Both the position numbers and the translations under genes were made by a program. 52,964 nt of DNA from Butyrivibrio sp. (GTDB lineage: Bacteria; Bacillota; Clostridia; Lachnospirales; Lachnospiraceae), in the NCBI RefSeq assembly GCF_017635265.1, contig NZ_JAGBLU010000076.1:1-52964 (forward strand), in the 5' to 3' direction. Position 1 is the first letter of the stretch. Each line of letters begins with the position of its first letter. Positions 21,334 to 33,268 of this stretch are shown here, one piece after another. The notes below the pieces were generated by a model, which made no database searches, was not told where the DNA came from, and saw only the letters and a program-made list of their open reading frames with translations.

Positions 21334-22119
21334 CTATTCTGATTTTTCACTTGAAGCTGTACTTGATGAGCCTTCCGATGATCCGGAGGTACTCTCCAAA
21401 GTTGTGGCTGTTTCAGTAGCTATCTGCGTATCAGAAGAAGTTGATTCATCATATGAAGAAACATTCGTTACATACCAGCTGTCAGTTTCGGTATTCTTCT
21501 CAAGCTTAAGAGTTATAGCATATGTTTCAGGAGAAGCCTCTTCAATAAGTTTCTCATAGACATCAATAATCTTGGTAATCATGTCATTGTATATGTAGGC
21601 TTCTACTTCTTCTTCAGTTTTTTCCTCATACATAGCTACAATCTGCTCTTCATTTTCAGCATAGTACACTTCAGCCTCTTGTTCTATCATCTCAAGGGCC
21701 TCTGCGTTATCTATTACATCTATCGGAAAAGAGGTATCTATCATAGCTACAACCGTTCCGGTTCCATCCTTATTGACTGTAACTTCGGATATTTTATAAT
21801 CAACAATCATATCAGAAAACAAAGAACAAAAAGCCTCAACTCTCGCTAACGTTTCATCATCTACCTCACTACTGACAAAGCCGTCCATAAAATTCTGTTT
21901 TAGATACTCGCTGTCAAAAGTCTTAACAAATTCACCTTCAGATACTTCGGCGCTCGCATATTTTTCTATGTCTTCATTGGTGCCATTTTTTACTATAGAG
22001 AGAAACTTATCAGCTGTGTCAGAAATTGCTGTTTTATCTGCTGAAGTACATCCTGTAAGTATTGAAACTGATAATAATGCAGAAGCTACGGATGTAAGTA
22101 CTTTTTTTATTGTATTCAT
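21334..22119 (-). CDS. Lipoprotein of unknown function (DUF5105-like size and layout)
   Basis: About 261 residues from the ATG at 22119 (MNTIKKVLTSVASALLS). The lipobox is ILTGC. The body is an alpha/beta domain rich in Glu, with repeated segments such as KFLSIVKNGTNEDIEKYAS and TKIIDVYEKLIEEASPETYA. The last 30 residues are a Ser/Thr/Glu low-complexity tail. The layout is that of small clostridial lipoproteins with NTF2-like bodies, but I cannot name the family with confidence. The TTG at 22131 is an alternative start; neither has a good ribosome site. A small hairpin AGGTCT-N4-AGACCT lies just upstream of the start. Confidence 0.78.
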   Translation of the reverse strand: MNTIKKVLTSVASALLSVSILTGCTSADKTAISDTADKFLSIVKNGTNEDIEKYASAEVSEGEFVKTFDSEYLKQNFMDGFVSSEVDDETLARVEAFCSLFSDMIVDYKISEVTVNKDGTGTVVAMIDTSFPIDVIDNAEALEMIEQEAEVYYAENEEQIVAMYEEKTEEEVEAYIYNDMITKIIDVYEKLIEEASPETYAITLKLEKNTETDSWYVTNVSSYDESTSSDTQIATETATTLESTSGSSEGSSSTASSEKSE

Positions 22120-22167
22120 TATATGTAACAAGGTCTAAACAGACCTGTCATCGTCCTTTCAAAAAAT

Positions 22168-23215: not shown

Positions 23216-24736
23216 TTAAACAAGCTTATGATGACAAGCAACAAAATGGTTAGGCGCAATTTCTTCCCACTCAGGAACTACATGTTCACAAATTTCTGTA
23301 CAGTACTTACATCTTGTATGGAACTTACATCCTTTAGGAGGATTAACAGGGCTTGGTATATCACCCTCTAGCACAACCAGATCCTTCTTGCTGTCAGTTG
23401 TAGGTATTGACTCAAGAAGTGCCCTAGTGTATGGATGCGCAGGTGAAGCAAATATATCATCAGATGACGCAAGCTCTACAAGATTACCTAAATACATAAC
23501 ACCGATTCTGTCTGAAATATATTTTACAACAGAAAGATCATGTGTAATAAACAGGTATGTAAGGTTCTTTTTCTCCTTAAGCTCCTGTAAAAGGTTAAGG
23601 ATCTGTGACTGAATAGAAACGTCAAGAGCTGAAACAGCCTCATCGCACACTACAAACTTAGGATTAACTGCAAGGCTTCTGGCGATACCGATACGCTGTC
23701 TCTGTCCACCTGAGAACTGATGAGCAAATCTGTGTACAAAGTATCCTGCAAGTCCGCAATCTTCCATGATCTTAATTACTTCATCCTGCATACGCTCATT
23801 GTTGCCCTTGCAGAACTTATGAGCCATAAGTCCCTCACCGATAAGTGATGCAACAGTCATTCTGGGATTAAGTGATGAATACGGATCCTGGAAAATGTAC
23901 TGGAGCTGATTTCTGATAAGACGAACTTCATTGTAAGAAAGTCTTGCAAGATCAATTCCTTCATCACGTTTCTCTTCATGCTTGGCAAAATCAGGGTTAC
24001 TTCTGTAATCTGCACGAAGAGCTTCTATTCTCTTATCTATCTCAGCTATTGAAGCCTTATCTGCATCAATAGTATTCTTAATAAGATCTGCTTTAGCCTG
24101 AAGTGAAGCTAGCTTATTCTTTTCTTTATCTGTTGCTTTATCGGCTTTTTTATTAACTACATACTCAAGCTCATCAGCATTAAGCTTTGCAGTTTTATGC
24201 TTCTCAATGTCCTTGTTGAGCTTTTCACATGCTGCATATCTCTCAGTATAGATTTTCTCAACAGGTGCAAGATCATCAGCAACAATAAAACCACCAATAA
24301 GATTAACTATATTGAGATAAGAATCTTCTGCTGTTTTTTTCTTGGCTGTAAGGTCTGTATGAAGGTGAAGCTTCTTATCATCCGGAGCTTCATCATATTC
24401 TTTTTTAGCCTTATCATACTCAGCCTGATGCTCATTCATCTTCTTTCTGAGCTTTGTAAGGTTTGTAACTGTCTTTTTGACATATTTAGGAGCAAGCTCA
24501 TCAAGTGATGCTCCATAATACATTGTCTTTCCACCGGTCTGGCGATAGAGCTGTAAAAGTGTTCGTCCAAATGTAGATTTACCACATCCTGACTCGCCAA
24601 CAAGGCCAAGTGTCTCGCCTTCATAGATATCAAGTGAGATACCATCATTGGCTTTTACATACATTCCCTTTTTGGCAACAGAGAAATACTGTTTTAAGTT
24701 TGTAATTTTTAGAAGGACTTTATCATTTTGTGGCAT
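23216..24736 (-). CDS. oppF: Oligopeptide ABC transporter ATPase OppF with a long helical insertion
   Basis: About 506 residues from the ATG at 24736 (AAAGGAGG six bases upstream); usual OppF has about 310-330. Walker A GESGCGKST is at 47-55, but the Q-loop (YIFQDPYSSLNP) is only at about 280-291, whereas about 45 residues normally separate them. The extra 185 residues (about 80-265) are Lys/Glu/Asp/Ala-rich and predicted helical, with a coiled-coil look (TKLRKKMNEHQAEYDKAKKE; DKRIEALRADY). The signature FSGGQRQRIG (341-350), the Walker B region and the OppF C-terminal zinc-like Cys segment (CKFHTRCKYCTEICEH) are intact. It overlaps oppD by 14 bases. The insertion faces the cytosol. Confidence 0.93.
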   Translation of the reverse strand: MPQNDKVLLKITNLKQYFSVAKKGMYVKANDGISLDIYEGETLGLVGESGCGKSTFGRTLLQLYRQTGGKTMYYGASLDELAPKYVKKTVTNLTKLRKKMNEHQAEYDKAKKEYDEAPDDKKLHLHTDLTAKKKTAEDSYLNIVNLIGGFIVADDLAPVEKIYTERYAACEKLNKDIEKHKTAKLNADELEYVVNKKADKATDKEKNKLASLQAKADLIKNTIDADKASIAEIDKRIEALRADYRSNPDFAKHEEKRDEGIDLARLSYNEVRLIRNQLQYIFQDPYSSLNPRMTVASLIGEGLMAHKFCKGNNERMQDEVIKIMEDCGLAGYFVHRFAHQFSGGQRQRIGIARSLAVNPKFVVCDEAVSALDVSIQSQILNLLQELKEKKNLTYLFITHDLSVVKYISDRIGVMYLGNLVELASSDDIFASPAHPYTRALLESIPTTDSKKDLVVLEGDIPSPVNPPKGCKFHTRCKYCTEICEHVVPEWEEIAPNHFVACHHKLV

Positions 24737-25715
24737 GACGATCCTCCTTTCTTGCATAGAAGCATCTTACCTGCTGGCCTTCACGAACCTTAATAAGTGG
24801 TGGTTCTTCATTGAGGCACTTCTCTGTTGCATATTTACAACGAGGTGCAAACTTACATCCCTTTGGAAGCTTAAGCGGGTGAGGTACTGCGCCCGGTATA
24901 GCATCAAGCTTCTGGTTTGAAGGTGTATCAAGTCTTGGAATTGATATCATAAGTCCTTCAGTATATGGATGTGAGAACTCTGATACGTGGAAGATTGTCT
25001 CTGCGTCTGTAAGCTCAACAACCTGTCCGCAGTACATAACTGCAACCGTATCAGCAATCTGTCTAATTACACCAAGATCGTGTGTAATGAAGATAATTGA
25101 TGTATTATACTCACTCTTAAGATCATTCATGAGCTTAAGGATCTGGGCCTGAATTGTAACATCAAGAGCTGTTGTAGGTTCATCAGCAATAAGAAGCTTG
25201 GGCTTGCAGGCGAGAGCCATGGCAATCATAACTCTCTGTCTCATACCACCTGAAAGCTGGTGTGGATACTGCTTTGCTACGATGTGAGGATTAGGAATCT
25301 TAACATCTGCAAGCATCTCTACAACCTTTGCAGCTGCTTCTTTTTTATTCATACCCTGGTGGATAATGAAAGGCTCACTTACCTGTCTTTCTATAGTGAA
25401 GACAGGATTAAGGCTTGTCATAGGCTCCTGGAAAATGACAGAAATATCATTACCACGAACCTTGTACATTTCTTTTTCCGAAAGCTTCGTGAGATCTCTG
25501 CCATCAAACATGATCTCACCGCTATCTATATATCCGTTGCCGTCAAGGAGCTGCAAGATACTCATTGCAGATACGCTCTTTCCGGAACCGGACTCTCCTA
25601 CTACGCCAATGGTCTTTCCTTCATCAACTGAGTAAGAAACGCCATTAACTGCTTTAACTATTCCCTTTTTTGTCCTAAAAAAGGTATGTAAATCTTTTAA
25701 TTCTAATAAAGCCAT
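24723..25715 (-). CDS. oppD: Oligopeptide ABC transporter ATPase OppD
   Basis: 330 residues, normal length. Walker [10 protein letters not shown]-loop [12 protein letters not shown], signature [15 protein letters not shown], Walker [14 protein letters not shown], switch His ITHDLGVI, and the C-terminal oligopeptide-type Cys segment [14 protein letters not shown]. Walker A to Q-loop spacing is ordinary, so the insertion seen in OppF is specific to that subunit. It starts 13 bases after oppC, with GGGAG seven bases before the ATG. Confidence 0.95.
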
Positions 25716-25728
25716 CTCTTACACTCCC

Positions 25729-27828
25729 TTACTTATCACGGTCAGATTTTGGATCCATTACATCTCGCAGTGTATCACCTACGATATTGATACATATACA
25801 GGTAACTGCAAGGAAAATAGATGTAAATACCCACTGCCACCAGTAATTCTTGATAATAGTTGAATTGTTCGAACCACTCAGCATGTTACCCCATGTAGGT
25901 CTTGGATATGTAACACCAAATCCAAGGTAACTAAGTGATGACTCTGTAAGCATACATGTCGCAAAATCAAGTGTAAGTGTAACGAAGATGATTGAAACAA
26001 TATTGGGAAGGATGTGTCTGAAAGCGATTCTTCCTTCCTTAACACCCATAGCCTTGGCAGCTGTAACATATTCATTCTCACGTGCTACAAGAACCTGTCC
26101 TCTAACCATTCTGGCAAGTCCTGTCCATGTAAGAACACCAAGGATGCACATGAGAATAAATATCTTCTTATTCTCAGAAATATCCATCTGTGCCATAACA
26201 GCAGACAAAATAAGTGCAAACGGTAGGAACGGTATAGCTGCAAAAACTTCTGCTATACGCATGAGAACAATATCTACAGTTCCTCCAAAATATCCTGATA
26301 AACAACCGACTACAATACCAATAATAGTTGAAATGATAACTGCCACAGCACCGATAGTCATGGTCATCTTTCCACCCTGGATAATACGCTGGAATATATC
26401 AGCGCCATATCCGTCTGTTCCAAAAAGATAACCCTTAAGTCCCCATTTTCCAACAAGAGAACCATTTGAATCTACAGCATAACTCTGGAAAGCTCCGGCA
26501 AATACCTTTGCAGTCTTTCCATCAACTTTTGTAGGGACATCTGTCTGTTTAAGTGTTGAGCCTCCCCATGAAAGCACTCTTCCCTCTGATGTAAGCGCAG
26601 TATAGTGATATGTTCCTGCTTCTATCTGAACTATTGTTTCACCATCATGAAGAGCTGGCATTGCAACTGAATCAGATGGGAAATTTCCGGCAAAAAAGAG
26701 ACTTCCGTCACTAAGCATTCCGCAAAGATGATTGTTTGTAGCATAAATTGAAACAATCTTTCTCTTTCCAAGGAACTTTTTAGAAGACTTACCTGCCTCA
26801 TTTATATTGGAACGATACTGATCATAAAGTCCTCTTTTTCCTGTGTAGATTGAAGTTCCAGCATCTGTAATACCAACTATATAGTTAAGAGTAAAATCTA
26901 TATCTGTAAGATCATCTTTGTCAACAAAGCTGCTGATGTTCTGATATGCATTGGCATTACCCCAGATATAGAGCTTGCCATCATTCATAAGAATTGCTGT
27001 GCACTGATATCCGCAAACAAGTTTTTTGATATTAGCAACATCAATAGTTCCATTTACAAGCTCATCTGGCATAGGAATGATGTTTTCACCTGCTGATGCT
27101 GCAGTAGATGCAGCAACATCTGTTTCATCAGAACTCTCCGATACTTCTTCATCTGCTGATTCTTCACCTTCTACAGACTCAGCATCTTCAGTTGTAGCTC
27201 CTGCTTCTTCAAGAATAGCCTGATCTTCTTCACTTACTGATTCCTCAGCTTCTTCAAGCTGCTCAAGGACTTCCTTATCAGTTGTGATGTACTGACCATG
27301 CTTATTGGAACCCCATCCGTAAACCTTACCGGATTCGCTGATTGCAATTATATGATCTATACCTGCTGCAACATAGCAAATTGTGTCATTCTCAACAGCT
27401 TCGGGAATATCACTAATATCGATTCCTGTTGTTCCAAGCTGTGTAGCTCCCCAAACATATACATCTCCTGAATTGGAAAGACCTACTGAAAAACTACCAT
27501 AGCTGTCGATCATCTTTATATCATTTTTCAGTCCTGAAGGAACCTTCATCATACTCATTGTAGGAGCTACGTTTTTCTGAGTAACCTCTGTATATGAGTC
27601 ATAATAGTTAGGCATGAACAGTGGCCCGAAGAAAACCAAAAGGAACATTAAGATAACTACGATCATAGCTCCAACTGCAAGTCTTCTCTCAAGGAAGTTC
27701 CTTACTATCTGCCCTATAGGACTTACTACTTCTTCTACATCAATGGAGTCTGCAAGGTCTCTGCTTCCTCCAAAAAATACTCTGCGAACCCAGCCGCTCA
27801 AACGGCCAAAAAAATTCTTTTTCTTCAT
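25729..27828 (-). CDS. oppC: Oligopeptide ABC transporter permease OppC with an inserted RCC1-like beta-propeller
   Basis: 699 residues, against about 300 for usual OppC. The OppC N-terminal helix lies at about 50-71. The OppC signature YLFGTDGYGADIFQRIIQGG is at about 467-486, followed by the five-helix permease core with the EAA loop (EYVTAAKAMGVKEGRIAFRHILPN). Between them (about 104-470) are seven RCC1-type repeats near 104-132, 150-180, 267-297, 308-338, 358-386, 399-428 and 440-470. Examples are GDVYVWGATQLG, GKVYGWGSNKHGQ, GKLYIWGNANA and GRVLSWGGST. An acidic Glu/Ser/Ala linker (184-246) separates repeats 2 and 3. By OppC topology the domain faces outside. The frame is continuous, with AAGGAG ten bases before the ATG. 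Peptide import permease is certain; the role of the propeller is unknown. Confidence 0.93.
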   Translation of the reverse strand: MKKKNFFGRLSGWVRRVFFGGSRDLADSIDVEEVVSPIGQIVRNFLERRLAVGAMIVVILMFLLVFFGPLFMPNYYDSYTEVTQKNVAPTMSMMKVPSGLKNDIKMIDSYGSFSVGLSNSGDVYVWGATQLGTTGIDISDIPEAVENDTICYVAAGIDHIIAISESGKVYGWGSNKHGQYITTDKEVLEQLEEAEESVSEEDQAILEEAGATTEDAESVEGEESADEEVSESSDETDVAASTAASAGENIIPMPDELVNGTIDVANIKKLVCGYQCTAILMNDGKLYIWGNANAYQNISSFVDKDDLTDIDFTLNYIVGITDAGTSIYTGKRGLYDQYRSNINEAGKSSKKFLGKRKIVSIYATNNHLCGMLSDGSLFFAGNFPSDSVAMPALHDGETIVQIEAGTYHYTALTSEGRVLSWGGSTLKQTDVPTKVDGKTAKVFAGAFQSYAVDSNGSLVGKWGLKGYLFGTDGYGADIFQRIIQGGKMTMTIGAVAVIISTIIGIVVGCLSGYFGGTVDIVLMRIAEVFAAIPFLPFALILSAVMAQMDISENKKIFILMCILGVLTWTGLARMVRGQVLVARENEYVTAAKAMGVKEGRIAFRHILPNIVSIIFVTLTLDFATCMLTESSLSYLGFGVTYPRPTWGNMLSGSNNSTIIKNYWWQWVFTSIFLAVTCICINIVGDTLRDVMDPKSDRDK

Positions 27829-27842
27829 ATTCTCACTACTCC

Positions 27843-28895
27843 TTAGGCGCTTACTCTGACTCTTGGGTCAACAAGTCCATATACAATATCAATTATCAGG
27901 TTGCCTATGAGAGAAATAGCAACATAGAAAAGCTGCATAAGAATAACCACATCGAAATCCTGTGTTCGCAGTGATGATATCATAAGCTTACCCATTCCAT
28001 TTATGCCAAATGTAGTTTCAAAAATAAGTGAACCACCAAAGATACCAAGAAACCATCCAACTACCAAAGTAACAATTGGGATAAGTGCATTTCTCCAGGC
28101 GTGAGAATATATAACTGCCTTTTCTGTAACGCCTTTAGCTCTTGCAGTTCTGATACAGTCAAGTGACAGAGCATCGATCATAGAAGCTCTAACATATCTT
28201 GTCATTGAACCAAGGGAGCAGAAAGTCATTGTAATAAGAGGAAGTGCCATATAATACATTCTGTCAACAAACCACTTCCAACCTGTATAGTTACTTCCTG
28301 GAGTCTTCATTCCACTGGGAGGGAATATTCCAAGAAGGGAACAGAATATCCATACAAAAAGAATTGCTGTTACAAAAGTAGGAAGTGAATAACCTATAAT
28401 AGTAATAACCTGCATGGCCTGATCACCTTTACTTCCCTTATGCACGGCACAGACAATTCCTAACGGAATTGTTATTCCAAGAGCTAGTATAGTTGCAAAT
28501 ATATTTATAAATATGGTGTTTTTCATAGGTTCTTTAACAACATTAACAACGTCATCCTTAAGCTCATATGAATAGCCAAAGTCACCCTGTAAAAGACCTG
28601 AATATTTGCCATAATAGTTGGGCATCAACCCTACCCAACGAAGATATCTGACTGCCATATTATTGGTATCTGTTCCATATTGTCGCTGATACTCCAAATA
28701 CATTTCATCAAACATCTTATCTTTCTCTTCATCAGAAGCATTACGCAGACGTGTCTTCTGTGCTGCCATATCAGCTTTAGCATCTGTATATGCTCTGTTA
28801 TTGGGAACAAGATTATATATGAGGAATAATAAAAACGACAAAACTACAAGTACAACTAACATGTAGCCTATTCTTTTAAGTACATACTTTCCCAT
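27843..28895 (-). CDS. oppB: Oligopeptide ABC transporter permease OppB
   Basis: 350 residues. The N-terminal helix MGKYVLKRIGYMLVVLVVLS is typical of OppB/DppB. A loop of about 85 residues follows, then the permease core with the EAA loop (DCIRTARAKGVTEKAVIYSHAWRN) and the C-terminal VYGLVDPRVRV ending. The first outer loop is slightly longer and more charged than in E. coli OppB (DAKADMAAQKTRLRNASDEE), but there is no propeller. AGGAGG lies before the ATG. It starts about 210 bases after oppA, with a strong hairpin between. Confidence 0.94.
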   Translation of the reverse strand: MGKYVLKRIGYMLVVLVVLSFLLFLIYNLVPNNRAYTDAKADMAAQKTRLRNASDEEKDKMFDEMYLEYQRQYGTDTNNMAVRYLRWVGLMPNYYGKYSGLLQGDFGYSYELKDDVVNVVKEPMKNTIFINIFATILALGITIPLGIVCAVHKGSKGDQAMQVITIIGYSLPTFVTAILFVWIFCSLLGIFPPSGMKTPGSNYTGWKWFVDRMYYMALPLITMTFCSLGSMTRYVRASMIDALSLDCIRTARAKGVTEKAVIYSHAWRNALIPIVTLVVGWFLGIFGGSLIFETTFGINGMGKLMISSLRTQDFDVVILMQLFYVAISLIGNLIIDIVYGLVDPRVRVSA

Positions 28896-29104: not shown

Positions 29105-31396
29105 TTAGTTCCAATAAATATCTGCCTCGTCCTTGATATACCAGTTAGAGTTATCATCGTACATACCGGGATTAATTGTTGCATAGAATGCATCGTCATA
29201 TACAGCAGATGTAAATCCTGTTGCAAAGTTAAAGCATGTGTACATAGGTGTACCGCTGTAGTAACCATAAACCTGCTGCTGATAGAATTCATCAAGCATA
29301 GGACCGAAGTCACCGGTTGTCTTCTGAACTGCAAAGCCTGCTGCTGCAATATTGTCATTCTGCTCAAATCCGGTTACAAGAAGATCTGAGAACTCGTTGT
29401 CAACAGTACCGTACCAGTTAAGTACGAGTGGCATGTAATAATCACCGTCAATCTCTACAGTCTTGTATGCGCCGTCAATAGACTGATAGTTCTTGTCGTT
29501 TTCTGTAGCATACTCGCCTGAAATTTTCTTATAACGAACGCCTTCTGTGTACTCGCCACCTTCTGCATTGTATACCCAGCCATCGTTCTCGAGGACTTCG
29601 ATAGCTGAATCAACAGAAGTATCATATGTGTTAAGAAGCATTCCCTGATCTACAGCTGCCTTGTACATCCAAGATCCTGTGTAGTAAGGTCCGTCAACAA
29701 CTCCGCCGTAACCACCTGTGAAATCCTTAGCAAATGTTGCTCTGTCCATGCAGTATGCAACAGCCTGACGAACAGCTGTATACTGAGCTGGGCCATAGTC
29801 ACATCTGAATCCAAGCTTACCGTAGCCTGCTCTTGAATAATGTGTATAAGCATAAGCTCCGTTTGAACCATCTGCAAGTGCTACAGCTTCATCTGTTGCT
29901 GAACCACCTGTAATACCTGAAAGAAGATCGATTCCACCTGACTTGAAGTCCTCAAGCTGTGTCTCTGCAATAACTTTCTTAAATACAATCTTCTCAATAG
30001 AAGGCTGTACTCCTTCATAATTGCCTTTGAAGTATTCATTCTTTACAAGCACAGCAGACTTATCACTTGCATCAAATGACTTAACTACATATGGACCTGA
30101 ATATGGATATGTTTCATCAGCATTATTTGCTGAATCTGTAATATGAGAAGCCATTACGTAACTATCACCATTCTTTGCATAGAAATCTCCTGTGATGTAT
30201 ACGCCTTCTCCATCATCAGCTATATCGCAATCACCAAACCAAACTTCCTTAGCATATGGTCTGAAGTAATCAAACTGAAGATAAGCAATAGAATAGAAAT
30301 AAGGAAGATACTGCGCATCAATAGTTATTGAAAGTGTGTAGTCATCAATAAGTCGAAGACCGCTCATAACCTTTGAAGCTCCATCGACACCATCGTTTGT
30401 GCCATCATAAGCTGCAAATGCTTCATAGCCTGCTTCATATAAAAGTCCCTTATGATCCTTTCCTGCTGCTTCTGCTGCAACAGGTGTTGAGAATGCCAAT
30501 GGGAAATAGAAGTAGTTTTTAGCTGTTACAGCTGATCCGTCAGAGAACTTAAGATCATCTTTAATCTTGACAGTATATGTCTTTGAACCATCCTCATTGT
30601 CTGTTTCTTCGAAACTGTCAACTACGGTATCATTTATCTGATAAGCACCCTCTTTGTTCATAGCAACCATTTCAAGTCCATTGGTAAGCTTCTGAATATC
30701 AAGGTCAGATGCTCCGGGATTTGTGCCACCGAAAGCTGCATATCTGAATTTACCTGAAAGATCTGTTGTATCACCGAGGATAATTGAGTTATCTTCCTTT
30801 TCAGATGTCCAGTCAATAACAGCGTAGCATGGCTGCCAATATGGGTTTGTAGGATGCTCTTCTACGCCCTTGATCTGTGTGTTGTAAACATCATAGTACT
30901 CATTGGAGTAAAGAGGAATCTCAGGAAGCATATAGTTCCAACGTGTAATGAAATACTTCCACCACTCAGCATATACTTCATCTTCTGTAGCGAAGTCTGT
31001 TCCTTCTGTAGATGTGTTATAAACCATAGCCATTGAAAGGAAATCAAGACCAAGTTCATAAGTCTCTCCATCTACATTAAGATAAGCAAGACCTGTTTCC
31101 TCATCCTCTGTTACGTCAGCGATTGAGATCTGCTTGCCAAACTTGTCGTAAAGTGAAATGTAATCAGCATTCTCACCATACTCTTTTCCGTTCAGTTCCT
31201 GAACTGATGATGGAAGATCAGCAGTTGAAACAACTTCTTCTGATTCTTCTGTTTCTGTCTCTGCAGCTGCTTCTGTAGAAGCTTCTTCAGTAGCCTGAGG
31301 AGCTGCAGGTGTCTCTGTAGCTGTATTACCGCAAGCTGTTAATGAACCGGCTACCATAGATAAAGCTAAAAGAGACGCAAGTGTCTTTTTTTTCAT
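29105..31396 (-). CDS. oppA: Oligopeptide ABC transporter substrate-binding lipoprotein OppA
   Basis: 763 residues, clearly longer than usual OppA (about 540-600). Signal peptide with lipobox LTAC, then a Thr/Glu/Ala-rich linker to about 60. An N-terminal region (about 60-210, including LYDKFGKQISIADVTEDEE and EWWKYFITRWNYMLPEIPLYS) precedes and interrupts the SBP_bac_5 fold, which is recognised by LKFSDGSAVTAKNYFY, YPYSGPYVVKSFD and AVRQAVAYCMDRATFAKDF. GGGAGG lies before the ATG. It binds peptides outside the cell and delivers them to OppBC. The extra N-terminal sequence could contact the outer domain of OppC; this is inference. Confidence 0.93.
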   Translation of the reverse strand: MKKKTLASLLALSMVAGSLTACGNTATETPAAPQATEEASTEAAAETETEESEEVVSTADLPSSVQELNGKEYGENADYISLYDKFGKQISIADVTEDEETGLAYLNVDGETYELGLDFLSMAMVYNTSTEGTDFATEDEVYAEWWKYFITRWNYMLPEIPLYSNEYYDVYNTQIKGVEEHPTNPYWQPCYAVIDWTSEKEDNSIILGDTTDLSGKFRYAAFGGTNPGASDLDIQKLTNGLEMVAMNKEGAYQINDTVVDSFEETDNEDGSKTYTVKIKDDLKFSDGSAVTAKNYFYFPLAFSTPVAAEAAGKDHKGLLYEAGYEAFAAYDGTNDGVDGASKVMSGLRLIDDYTLSITIDAQYLPYFYSIAYLQFDYFRPYAKEVWFGDCDIADDGEGVYITGDFYAKNGDSYVMASHITDSANNADETYPYSGPYVVKSFDASDKSAVLVKNEYFKGNYEGVQPSIEKIVFKKVIAETQLEDFKSGGIDLLSGITGGSATDEAVALADGSNGAYAYTHYSRAGYGKLGFRCDYGPAQYTAVRQAVAYCMDRATFAKDFTGGYGGVVDGPYYTGSWMYKAAVDQGMLLNTYDTSVDSAIEVLENDGWVYNAEGGEYTEGVRYKKISGEYATENDKNYQSIDGAYKTVEIDGDYYMPLVLNWYGTVDNEFSDLLVTGFEQNDNIAAAGFAVQKTTGDFGPMLDEFYQQQVYGYYSGTPMYTCFNFATGFTSAVYDDAFYATINPGMYDDNSNWYIKDEADIYWN

Positions 31397-31594: not shown

Positions 31595-33268
31595 TCAGAC
31601 TTTCTCTCTCATATTTTTTGCAAGTTCATCTATTGTGCCATCTTTAAATGGGCTCTTAAGTCCAACCTCGGCCAGCTCATTTTCATAGAAATCTCTGGTT
31701 GAAAGCTTACAAAGCTGTAAATAGTGATTCCAGGCATCCTTAAAGTCCTTGTCCATCCATACCTTGAACTGCATTGCAACAACGCTTGCAAGAACGTAAT
31801 CAATATAATAGAAAGGATTCCAGAAAATATGTCCCTGTTTCTGCCAGAATCCGCCTTCGTCAAAGAACTCATCCCCATCAAAGTCAAGCCATGGTCTGTA
31901 TGTCTTTTCAAGCTCTTTCCAAACCTGCTTTCTCTCTAAAGGAGTCATCTCGGGCTTGTCATAAACAATGTGCTGGAACTCATCTACCATACATCCGTAA
32001 GGAATAAATGTGATTGAATCCTGCAGATGCATCTTGAGATAATCATCTGATCTGTCACCAAAGAACTTATCCATCCAGCCGTATGTGAAGTACTCCATTG
32101 ACATAGAATGGATCTCAGCTGTTTCCATAGTAAGATCATTATTTTCAGGAGTCTCGTCATTTCTGGTCACATAACCCTGAAAGGCGTGTCCGCACTCGTG
32201 AGTTATAACATCTACATCTCCGCTTGTTCCGTTGAAATTAGCAAAAATAAACGGAGCTTTATATTTAGGAAGGAAGTCCATATAACCGCCGGCTTTCTTG
32301 GTCTTTCTTCCAAGGACATCAAAGAGCTCGTTTTCCATCATAAAATCAAAAAACTCTTTTGTCTCAGGTGAAAGCTCTGAGTACATTTCCTGTCCTGCCT
32401 TCATGATTTCTTCAGGTGTTCCGACAGGTGCAGGATTGCCATTTTTAAAGAAAACGTCATTATCATAGTACTTAAGATTTTCTACGCCAATCTGAGCTTT
32501 TCTCTTCTCCTGAATCTCACAAACAAATGGTACAAATGACTCTTTTATCTGCTTTCTGAAATTCTCAACCTCAGCTCTTCTGTATGCATTTCTCTGCATG
32601 CGGTTATAGCCAAGTTCTACGTAATTTTCATATCCAAGCTTTTTAGCCTGCTCAGTCCTGTTTTTTACAAGCTTATCATAGATATCATCAATCTCATCGG
32701 TAACAGAAAGGAAATACTCTGAAAGAGCCTTCCATGCACGCTTTCTGGTGTCTCTGTTCTCATCTGTGAGCTTTTTACGAAGAAGTGAAATATTGTACTC
32801 TTCACCGTCAAACGGAATCTTTGCAGAAGCAATTACCTTATCATACTTACTGATAAGTGCATTTTCTTCCTGCATAAGAGGAAGGATCTCTTCACTGATA
32901 GAGTTGTTGGCAAGTTCTATGTTCTTGAAAAAGATCTTGTTAATCTTCTCTTCAAGAAATTCACGATACGGAGATTCAAATAAAACCTTTTTGTACTGAT
33001 TCTCATAATTGGAAATCAGTGGCATTACTTCATCTGCATAGTCATTCTCTTTTGAGTAATACTCATCGCTTGTATCAATATTGTGCCTGAACACCGCCAA
33101 AGTAAGCTCTGTAAAATAGTCAGCTCTGAAATCTCTGTATTTTTGATGGAGCTGCAGCTGTTCTTCGCCACTTTTTGCATTCTTACTGTCTTCTATAAGT
33201 TTTTCATAAAAAGCCTTAATATCATCCATATCCGGACGCTTATACGGCATCTGCGATAATTTCATCAT
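31595..33268 (-). CDS. M3-family oligoendopeptidase
   Basis: 557 residues, cytosolic, no signal peptide. The zinc motif HECGH lies in DVITHECGHAFQGYVTR, with the downstream glutamate in METAEIHSMSMEYFT, as in M3 thimet-type oligopeptidases. Length and pattern fit the shorter oligoendopeptidase subgroup rather than classical PepF. It would cut imported oligopeptides. It lies about 200 bases upstream of oppA on the same strand, with its own promoter, so import and hydrolysis genes are adjacent. The start at 33268 or the next codon (MM) cannot be separated. Confidence 0.93.
   Translation of the reverse strand: MMKLSQMPYKRPDMDDIKAFYEKLIEDSKNAKSGEEQLQLHQKYRDFRADYFTELTLAVFRHNIDTSDEYYSKENDYADEVMPLISNYENQYKKVLFESPYREFLEEKINKIFFKNIELANNSISEEILPLMQEENALISKYDKVIASAKIPFDGEEYNISLLRKKLTDENRDTRKRAWKALSEYFLSVTDEIDDIYDKLVKNRTEQAKKLGYENYVELGYNRMQRNAYRRAEVENFRKQIKESFVPFVCEIQEKRKAQIGVENLKYYDNDVFFKNGNPAPVGTPEEIMKAGQEMYSELSPETKEFFDFMMENELFDVLGRKTKKAGGYMDFLPKYKAPFIFANFNGTSGDVDVITHECGHAFQGYVTRNDETPENNDLTMETAEIHSMSMEYFTYGWMDKFFGDRSDDYLKMHLQDSITFIPYGCMVDEFQHIVYDKPEMTPLERKQVWKELEKTYRPWLDFDGDEFFDEGGFWQKQGHIFWNPFYYIDYVLASVVAMQFKVWMDKDFKDAWNHYLQLCKLSTRDFYENELAEVGLKSPFKDGTIDELAKNMREKV

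Follow-up and report, generated by a model that had tools for sequence, protein, structure and literature searches.

In the 52,964 nucleotides of Butyrivibrio sp. DNA analysed here (the window), the OppC permease subunit of a predicted peptide importer has a large repeat domain of the RCC1 type inserted into it. With moderate confidence we read the system as a type I ABC importer, OppABCDF, in which OppC carries a seven-bladed RCC1-type propeller in the extracellular loop between TM1 and TM2, and in which this propeller holds or orients OppA at the mouth of the channel. How binding proteins find type I importers, stay on them and release their cargo into them is a standing question. A large extracellular domain that has become part of one permease subunit and has persisted in many families of a single phylum would be a natural, testable form of OppA capture among gut and rumen bacteria, and the propeller a domain handle on the question of a binding protein that cycles freely versus one that remains bound.

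The oppC gene is a single frame of 699 codons with an ATG start, which fills positions 25729 to 27828 (stop codon included) on the minus strand; the plus-strand frame has stops. All features of the protein described below are likewise on the minus strand. Pfam places OppC_N at residues 36-89 (27562-27723; E 2.6e-9, 37.2 bits, cut-off 23.9), with TM1 at about residues 50-68 by hydropathy, and BPD_transp_1 at residues 504-694 (25747-26319; E 1.1e-30, 107.2 bits, cut-off 26.4). The latter is the permease core and contains an EAA-type coupling segment, so named by eye, in which E586, A591 and G595 are invariant and A590 is nearly invariant. In an alignment of the window protein with 67 of 76 full-length OppC, BPD_transp_1 was matched by all 68 RCC1-OppC proteins and OppC_N by 67 of them (E<=1e-4). 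The best NCBIfam model was Opp4C (E 6.6e-86; best stretch 466-694, 288 bits), under its cut-off of 350. The other 24 models shown for the window OppC were likewise under their cut-offs, i. e. no NCBIfam OppC equivalog was reached.

The insert of about 380 residues (about 85-463) lies between TM1 and the start of the core, LFGTD. Ahead of the repeats stands a conserved linker (residues 76-101; 27526-27603), in which repeat register suggests the strand that would close blade 7. The RCC1-type repeat domain follows (residues 102-463; 26440-27525), delimited by Pfam, a repeat model, alignment and a profile search. At the junction WGLKGYLFGTD (residues 462-472; 26413-26445) the last repeat continues into the permease core, and the pattern W-G-[LMFI]-x-G-x3-GTD recurs in 72 of 80 named loci. 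A sequence search against the PDB paired the core with solved OppC/DppC over residues about 442-695, and the insert with UVR8, RCC1, HERC2 and BLIP-II. Thus the identity of the protein as OppC, its RCC1 repeats and their placement between TM1 and LFGTD, all proposed in a sequence-only reading, are upheld by Pfam and PDB sequence matches. No hydrophobic segment was found inside residues 96-463 (highest 19-residue mean 1.05, vs 2.95 for TM1), and with standard OppC topology the propeller loop is predicted to lie outside the cell.

The five-gene set, OppC_N plus BPD_transp_1 and the paired ATPases are shared with the Opp/Dpp importers (E. coli DppABCDF and OppBC, M. tuberculosis OppABCD). In contrast to the roughly 380 residues inserted here, and to the enlarged OppF described below, the solved OppC/DppC of these systems are 287-302 aa long and have no such domain, in line with the earlier assumption of a normal OppC of about 300 residues. 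OppC and RCC1 are both known families. The claim that no importer of such build has been reported still holds among the top-listed entries of the full-text searches aimed at the fusion, a scope outside which most subscription papers and all bioRxiv preprints lie; nor is an RCC1-OppC fusion described in the passages of PMC12136057, PMC3150292, PMC10928387 and PMC3534369 that were retrieved.

RCC1_2 matched the window OppC at E 2.6e-31 (107 bits, cut-off 22), with five stretches at E<=1, and the RCC1 model at 38 bits (cut-off 21.7); both were matched by 68 of 68 RCC1-OppC (E<=1e-4). The whole-domain RCC1-like model PF25390 reached E 7.6e-35 and 121.3 bits, under its own cut-off of 150. The repeat signature is that of RCC1, UVR8 and BLIP-II, and a profile search led to UVR8 at E 1.3e-58 and to BLIP-II at E 1.3e-36. 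These matches and the Pfam E-values rule out a chance repeat. Unlike the protein studied here, none of the 39 PDB sequences listed in this set is, by name, an ABC transporter.

The repeat unit is roughly [VI]xxI..G..H..AL..dG.vy.WG....(V/I)P..L. Seven repeats had been counted from sequence, and register against relatives supports seven blades, ending near residues 127, 173, 290, about 330, 381, 422 and 463; in the window protein itself only five are clear, both by Pfam and by a home-made repeat model, and the two that end at about 330 and 381 are degenerate. The inter-repeat gaps of 116 and 132 residues correspond to an acidic low-complexity loop (residues about 184-250; 27079-27279) and to the degenerate blades 4 and 5. 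Among 93 RCC1-OppC, the window protein included, 67 had five repeat hits, 14 had six and 10 had exactly seven, while one had four and one had ten. All ten proteins with exactly seven hits fall within the 18 rows from locus L144 upward, mostly distant ones, with a spacing of 34-53 residues. When aligned to distant relatives, the two weak blades fall between the third and sixth window blades, and the acidic loop becomes an addition between blades 2 and 3. This loop is long in Butyrivibrio proteins and mostly gapped in the other aligned ones (conservation 0.11).

The linker is at least as conserved as the propeller itself (residues 76-95: 0.66, vs 0.64 and 0.57 in two propeller parts), and P89 and P97 are invariant in the alignment of 68. 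Since a first VPxxL stands before blade 1 and none follows the last WG, the simplest reading is that blade 7 is completed by the N-terminal strand. Register, spacing, this VPxxL strand and the last WG together point to a closed seven-bladed ring. A variant was seen at L159:5684-8311, where an RCC1-OppC of 876 aa has an enlarged repeat region: about 540 residues with 10 repeat hits, which may form two propellers.

In the window, oppC is part of a compact minus-strand operon in the order peptidase M3 gene, OppA, OppB, OppC, OppD, OppF. The peptidase, upstream at 31595-33268, belongs to family M3 and is oligoendopeptidase F-like (PepF; PF01432, E 1.2e-27). OppA (29105-31396), the proposed partner of the propeller, is a family-5 binding protein of 763 aa (SBP_bac_5, E 3.4e-32) with a lipobox recognised by eye. 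OppB (27843-28895; 350 aa; Opp4B, E 2.5e-68, under cut-off) has a long segment after TM1 which, by eye, lies at the position of the DppB scoop motif. The ATPases are OppD (24723-25715; PRK09473 OppD, E 5.4e-119, under cut-off) and OppF (23216-24757; 513 aa), the latter assigned from its ORF, Pfam and NCBIfam. The five-gene Opp set would make this a peptide importer, and the peptidase M3 neighbour is suggestive of peptide import. Downstream of oppF, on the same strand, a gene that looks lipoprotein-like by eye (21334-22131) has no Pfam match; its homologues lie behind the operon in L068, L069 and L071, and L070 and L074 have weaker ones on the opposite strand.

The named loci are the best 80 of 315 relatives, a number that may include some plain OppC. 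An uncut OppC of 600-740 aa was found in 76 of the 80 and an uncut OppB in 78; OppB or OppD adjoins RCC1-OppC in all 80, and both do in 77. All five opp genes are present in 64 (uncut plus-strand frames, OppC >600 aa, OppA >690 aa). Homologues of the peptidase M3 occur in 16 of the 80, in L103 and L117 located beyond oppF. The N-terminal region of OppA, about 170 residues ahead of the family-5 part, is conserved among 50 aligned OppA, and no Pfam model other than SBP_bac_5 was over its cut-off in OppA. The idea that this extension is an obligate partner of the propeller is not supported: OppA has 496-753 aa in 14 more distant RCC1 loci, with 10 of 15 OppA at 598-667 aa, and by length the extension is absent from many distant RCC1 operons.

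The full protein recurs at 85-93% identity in 7 of 60 congeners, and an eighth congener has a 48% relative over residues 255-695. A search for further RCC1-OppC and their taxonomic spread, proposed with the sequence-only reading, found carriers in the same order, the same class and other classes of the phylum. In the order, 22 of 392 genomes have one match across the propeller and junction profile, plus 2 in which it is split or extended. The insert-plus-junction profile was matched by 17 of 391 genomes of the class (one only from profile position 77 on) and by 9 of 299 in the phylum sample, 7 of them in other classes; the three samples overlap a little. The best 80 of 315 include Butyrivibrio proteoclasticus P18 and Acetatifactor muris DSM 23669, and among named carriers those closest to the window are Butyrivibrio. 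The recurrence of the fusion in congeners, in order genomes and in 80 loci beside oppB or oppD excludes an assembly chimera. No relative was among 19 pattern matches in viral contigs, and plasmids gave no match at E 1e-60.

A tree was made from the permease cores alone of 41 RCC1-OppC and 40 others, by a quick search without bootstrap. In it a single branch (SH-aLRT 98) separates all 41 RCC1 rows from every other row. The RCC1 rows, recognised by the length of the insert and the number of [WFY]G rather than by Pfam, comprise the window protein, all 18 from L144 upward and 22 drawn at random from the remainder. Left out were five OppC hits without a recognisable core start, three of 20 added loci without a core, second copies of three rows already present, and L138, whose gene is split. 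With a single clade in this sample, the fusion appears to have arisen once, long ago, and to have been retained since, i. e. to mark an old Opp subfamily; no loss of the propeller was seen within the clade among the 41 sampled. The window's own genome also has plain OppC of 352 and 372 aa. In L138 (8030-9981), from a metagenome genome, OppC is broken into two frames (148 and 418 aa), which may reflect a frameshift or a pseudogene.

In a second group of 17 OppC (L011, L012, L014, L016-L026, L028-L030), the site of the propeller is taken by an unrelated insert of about 250 aa. Fifteen are from the same genus, whereas L011 and L014 are from the same order. The fifteen (L012, L016-L026, L028-L030) have 552-579 aa, and their insert is repeat-like by eye. 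In the insert of five that were scanned, L012, L016 and L022 among them, no RCC1 model matched and no Pfam cut-off was passed. On the core tree these proteins are placed apart from the RCC1 clade, and the family-5 binding proteins of the three operons examined have 758-847 aa. Thus the loop is a recurrent site for large extracellular additions.

Which partner the propeller might have was approached through evolutionary rates. Partial correlations of distances among the 64 complete operons were 0.93 for OppB with the OppC core and 0.86 for OppD with OppF, so that pairs expected to touch were recovered. The propeller gave 0.65 with OppA, 0.13 with OppB and 0.05 with its own core. A branch test used one tree of 58 operons (the 64 minus near-identical ones), of whose 113 branches 23 were too short and 90 were kept; a single fixed topology is a simplification, since trees built separately for the six parts disagree (RF 0.42-0.69). 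Here OppB-core reached 0.61, OppD-OppF 0.72, OppA-propeller 0.55 (p 2.5e-8; p-values over branches assume that these are independent and serve as a guide only), OppB-propeller 0.32, OppA-OppB 0.29 and propeller-core 0.07. With the 5, 10 and 20 longest branches removed, OppA-propeller stayed at 0.44, 0.50 and 0.50, and at 200 columns per part it was 0.50. OppB-propeller was 0.30-0.41 without long branches (0.41 vs 0.44 for OppA with five dropped) and 0.35 when subsampled, and OppB-core came down to 0.33-0.37 once long branches were removed. The C-terminal half of the propeller (roughly blades 4-7) gave 0.45-0.59 with four pieces of OppA and the N-terminal half 0.33-0.44, with a split-half value of 0.51 for the propeller; none of the four OppA pieces stood out.

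With fewer controls the coupling of the propeller to its own core is not small: the raw distance correlation is 0.70, and the two propeller halves give 0.42 and 0.60 with the core when only OppD and OppF are controlled. Overall, partial correlations with the propeller were 0.44-0.65 for OppA in the larger sets, 0.07-0.41 for OppB and 0.05-0.27 for the own core. The rate of the propeller tracks OppA more than its own membrane core, which is suggestive of OppA as a partner, though covariation is not contact. The domain had been taken for a docking or gating platform for OppA, peptides, the cell wall or a partner protein; of these, covariation favours OppA, with OppB next.

Two known systems show what such an element could do. 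In E. coli DppB, according to passages of PMC12136057, the TM1-TM2 periplasmic region has a scoop motif that enters the cleft of DppA and is proposed to seal the cavity. The propeller would occupy the corresponding extracytoplasmic TM1-TM2 loop, yet in the OppC partner and with about 380 residues instead of about 30. The permease subunit MalF of MalFGK2 likewise has a large extracytoplasmic region, MalF-P2, which according to passages of PMC3150292 contacts the binding protein, a contact that for OppA we infer. MalF-P2 comprises MalF residues 91-271 and sits in another loop than the OppC propeller. The fold differs as well, MalF-P2 not being an RCC1 propeller.

A possible mechanism is that the propeller sits beside the channel mouth, opposite the scoop segment of OppB, where throughout the cycle it keeps the lipoprotein OppA in place or orients it. 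Release of peptide into the outward-facing cavity could thereby become faster or better sealed. The propeller would then work like MalF-P2, as an arm in permanent contact with the binding protein, with another fold and in another loop. A site that is the counterpart of the scoop, the MalF-P2 precedent, the conserved linker and the covariation with OppA and OppB make an OppA platform the most economical reading; against it counts that plain OppC functions without a propeller.

The spacing between Walker A and the QDP of the Q-loop in OppF is 236 residues, vs 49-56 in ATPases of non-RCC1 loci, which means that about 180 charged, coiled-coil-like residues are inserted. OppF has at least 400 aa in 73 of 86 RCC1 loci, vs none of seven OppF from other operons. 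In passages of PMC12136057, E. coli DppC is partnered with DppF; with the same pairing, the additions to OppC and OppF would share one half of the transporter. Tentatively, the system could thus be a distinct class of importer, in which OppA is held by the OppC propeller instead of docking afresh in each cycle, and in which OppF carries a cytosolic coiled-coil-like arm on the same half-transporter, so that extracellular loading might be relayed or sensed across the membrane.

Alternatively, the propeller could be a second receptor, whose central face binds peptides and passes them to OppA or to the channel, widening the range to long peptides. BLIP-II and UVR8, its relatives by sequence, have propellers that bind other proteins, and positions in the loop after the AG of each repeat (F113, D158/H159, Y274/Q275, F312, H408/Y409, F447/Q448/Y450) are among the most conserved residues other than glycine and tryptophan. 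The peptidase M3 homologues in 16 of 80 loci would also fit. However, RCC1 repeats in general have a His in this loop, as the UVR8 alignments also show, so that part of the conservation signal is structural; moreover, a second receptor would not by itself explain the covariation with OppA. We regard a second receptor as improbable.

Somewhat less probable still is a passive role as spacer or stability domain, in which the propeller would have no specific partner and its covariation with OppA would reflect a shared extracellular evolutionary pressure. The unrelated insert at the same site would be in line with this. As a control for shared extracellular life we used MltG, an unrelated protein that acts outside the cell and has a near-full-length match in 39 of the 58 genomes. 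In these, the compartment effect was 0.25 for propeller-MltG (p 0.05) and 0.23 for OppA-MltG, but OppA-propeller reached 0.54 (p 9e-6), about twice the control; OppB-propeller was 0.21 and propeller-core 0.27 (p 0.04). In an incomplete set of 23 of the 39 genomes, left by a motif filter, propeller-MltG was 0.44 vs 0.42 for propeller-OppA. Part of the OppA-propeller signal may thus be due to the compartment, and the claim is kept moderate. A passive spacer also sits poorly with a clade in which none of 41 members sampled has lost it.

Least probable is an anchor to the cell wall, a surface polymer or a surface protein, which would fix the place of the importer rather than aid transport: extracellular propellers are often binding modules and many of the 80 named loci come from rumen or gut samples, but no recurrent accessory gene was recognised in the loci, where oppABDF, pepF and one lipoprotein gene were sought, and the strongest covariation is with OppA.

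RCC1 repeats were also met outside OppC. Near a contig end of the same genome as the window (G000, contig C122:80-472; L032, L036) lies another RCC1-repeat protein, and a frame on contig C4 of G485, at about 26450-61411, is reported as 29,380 aa, an extraordinary length, and contains RCC1 repeats.
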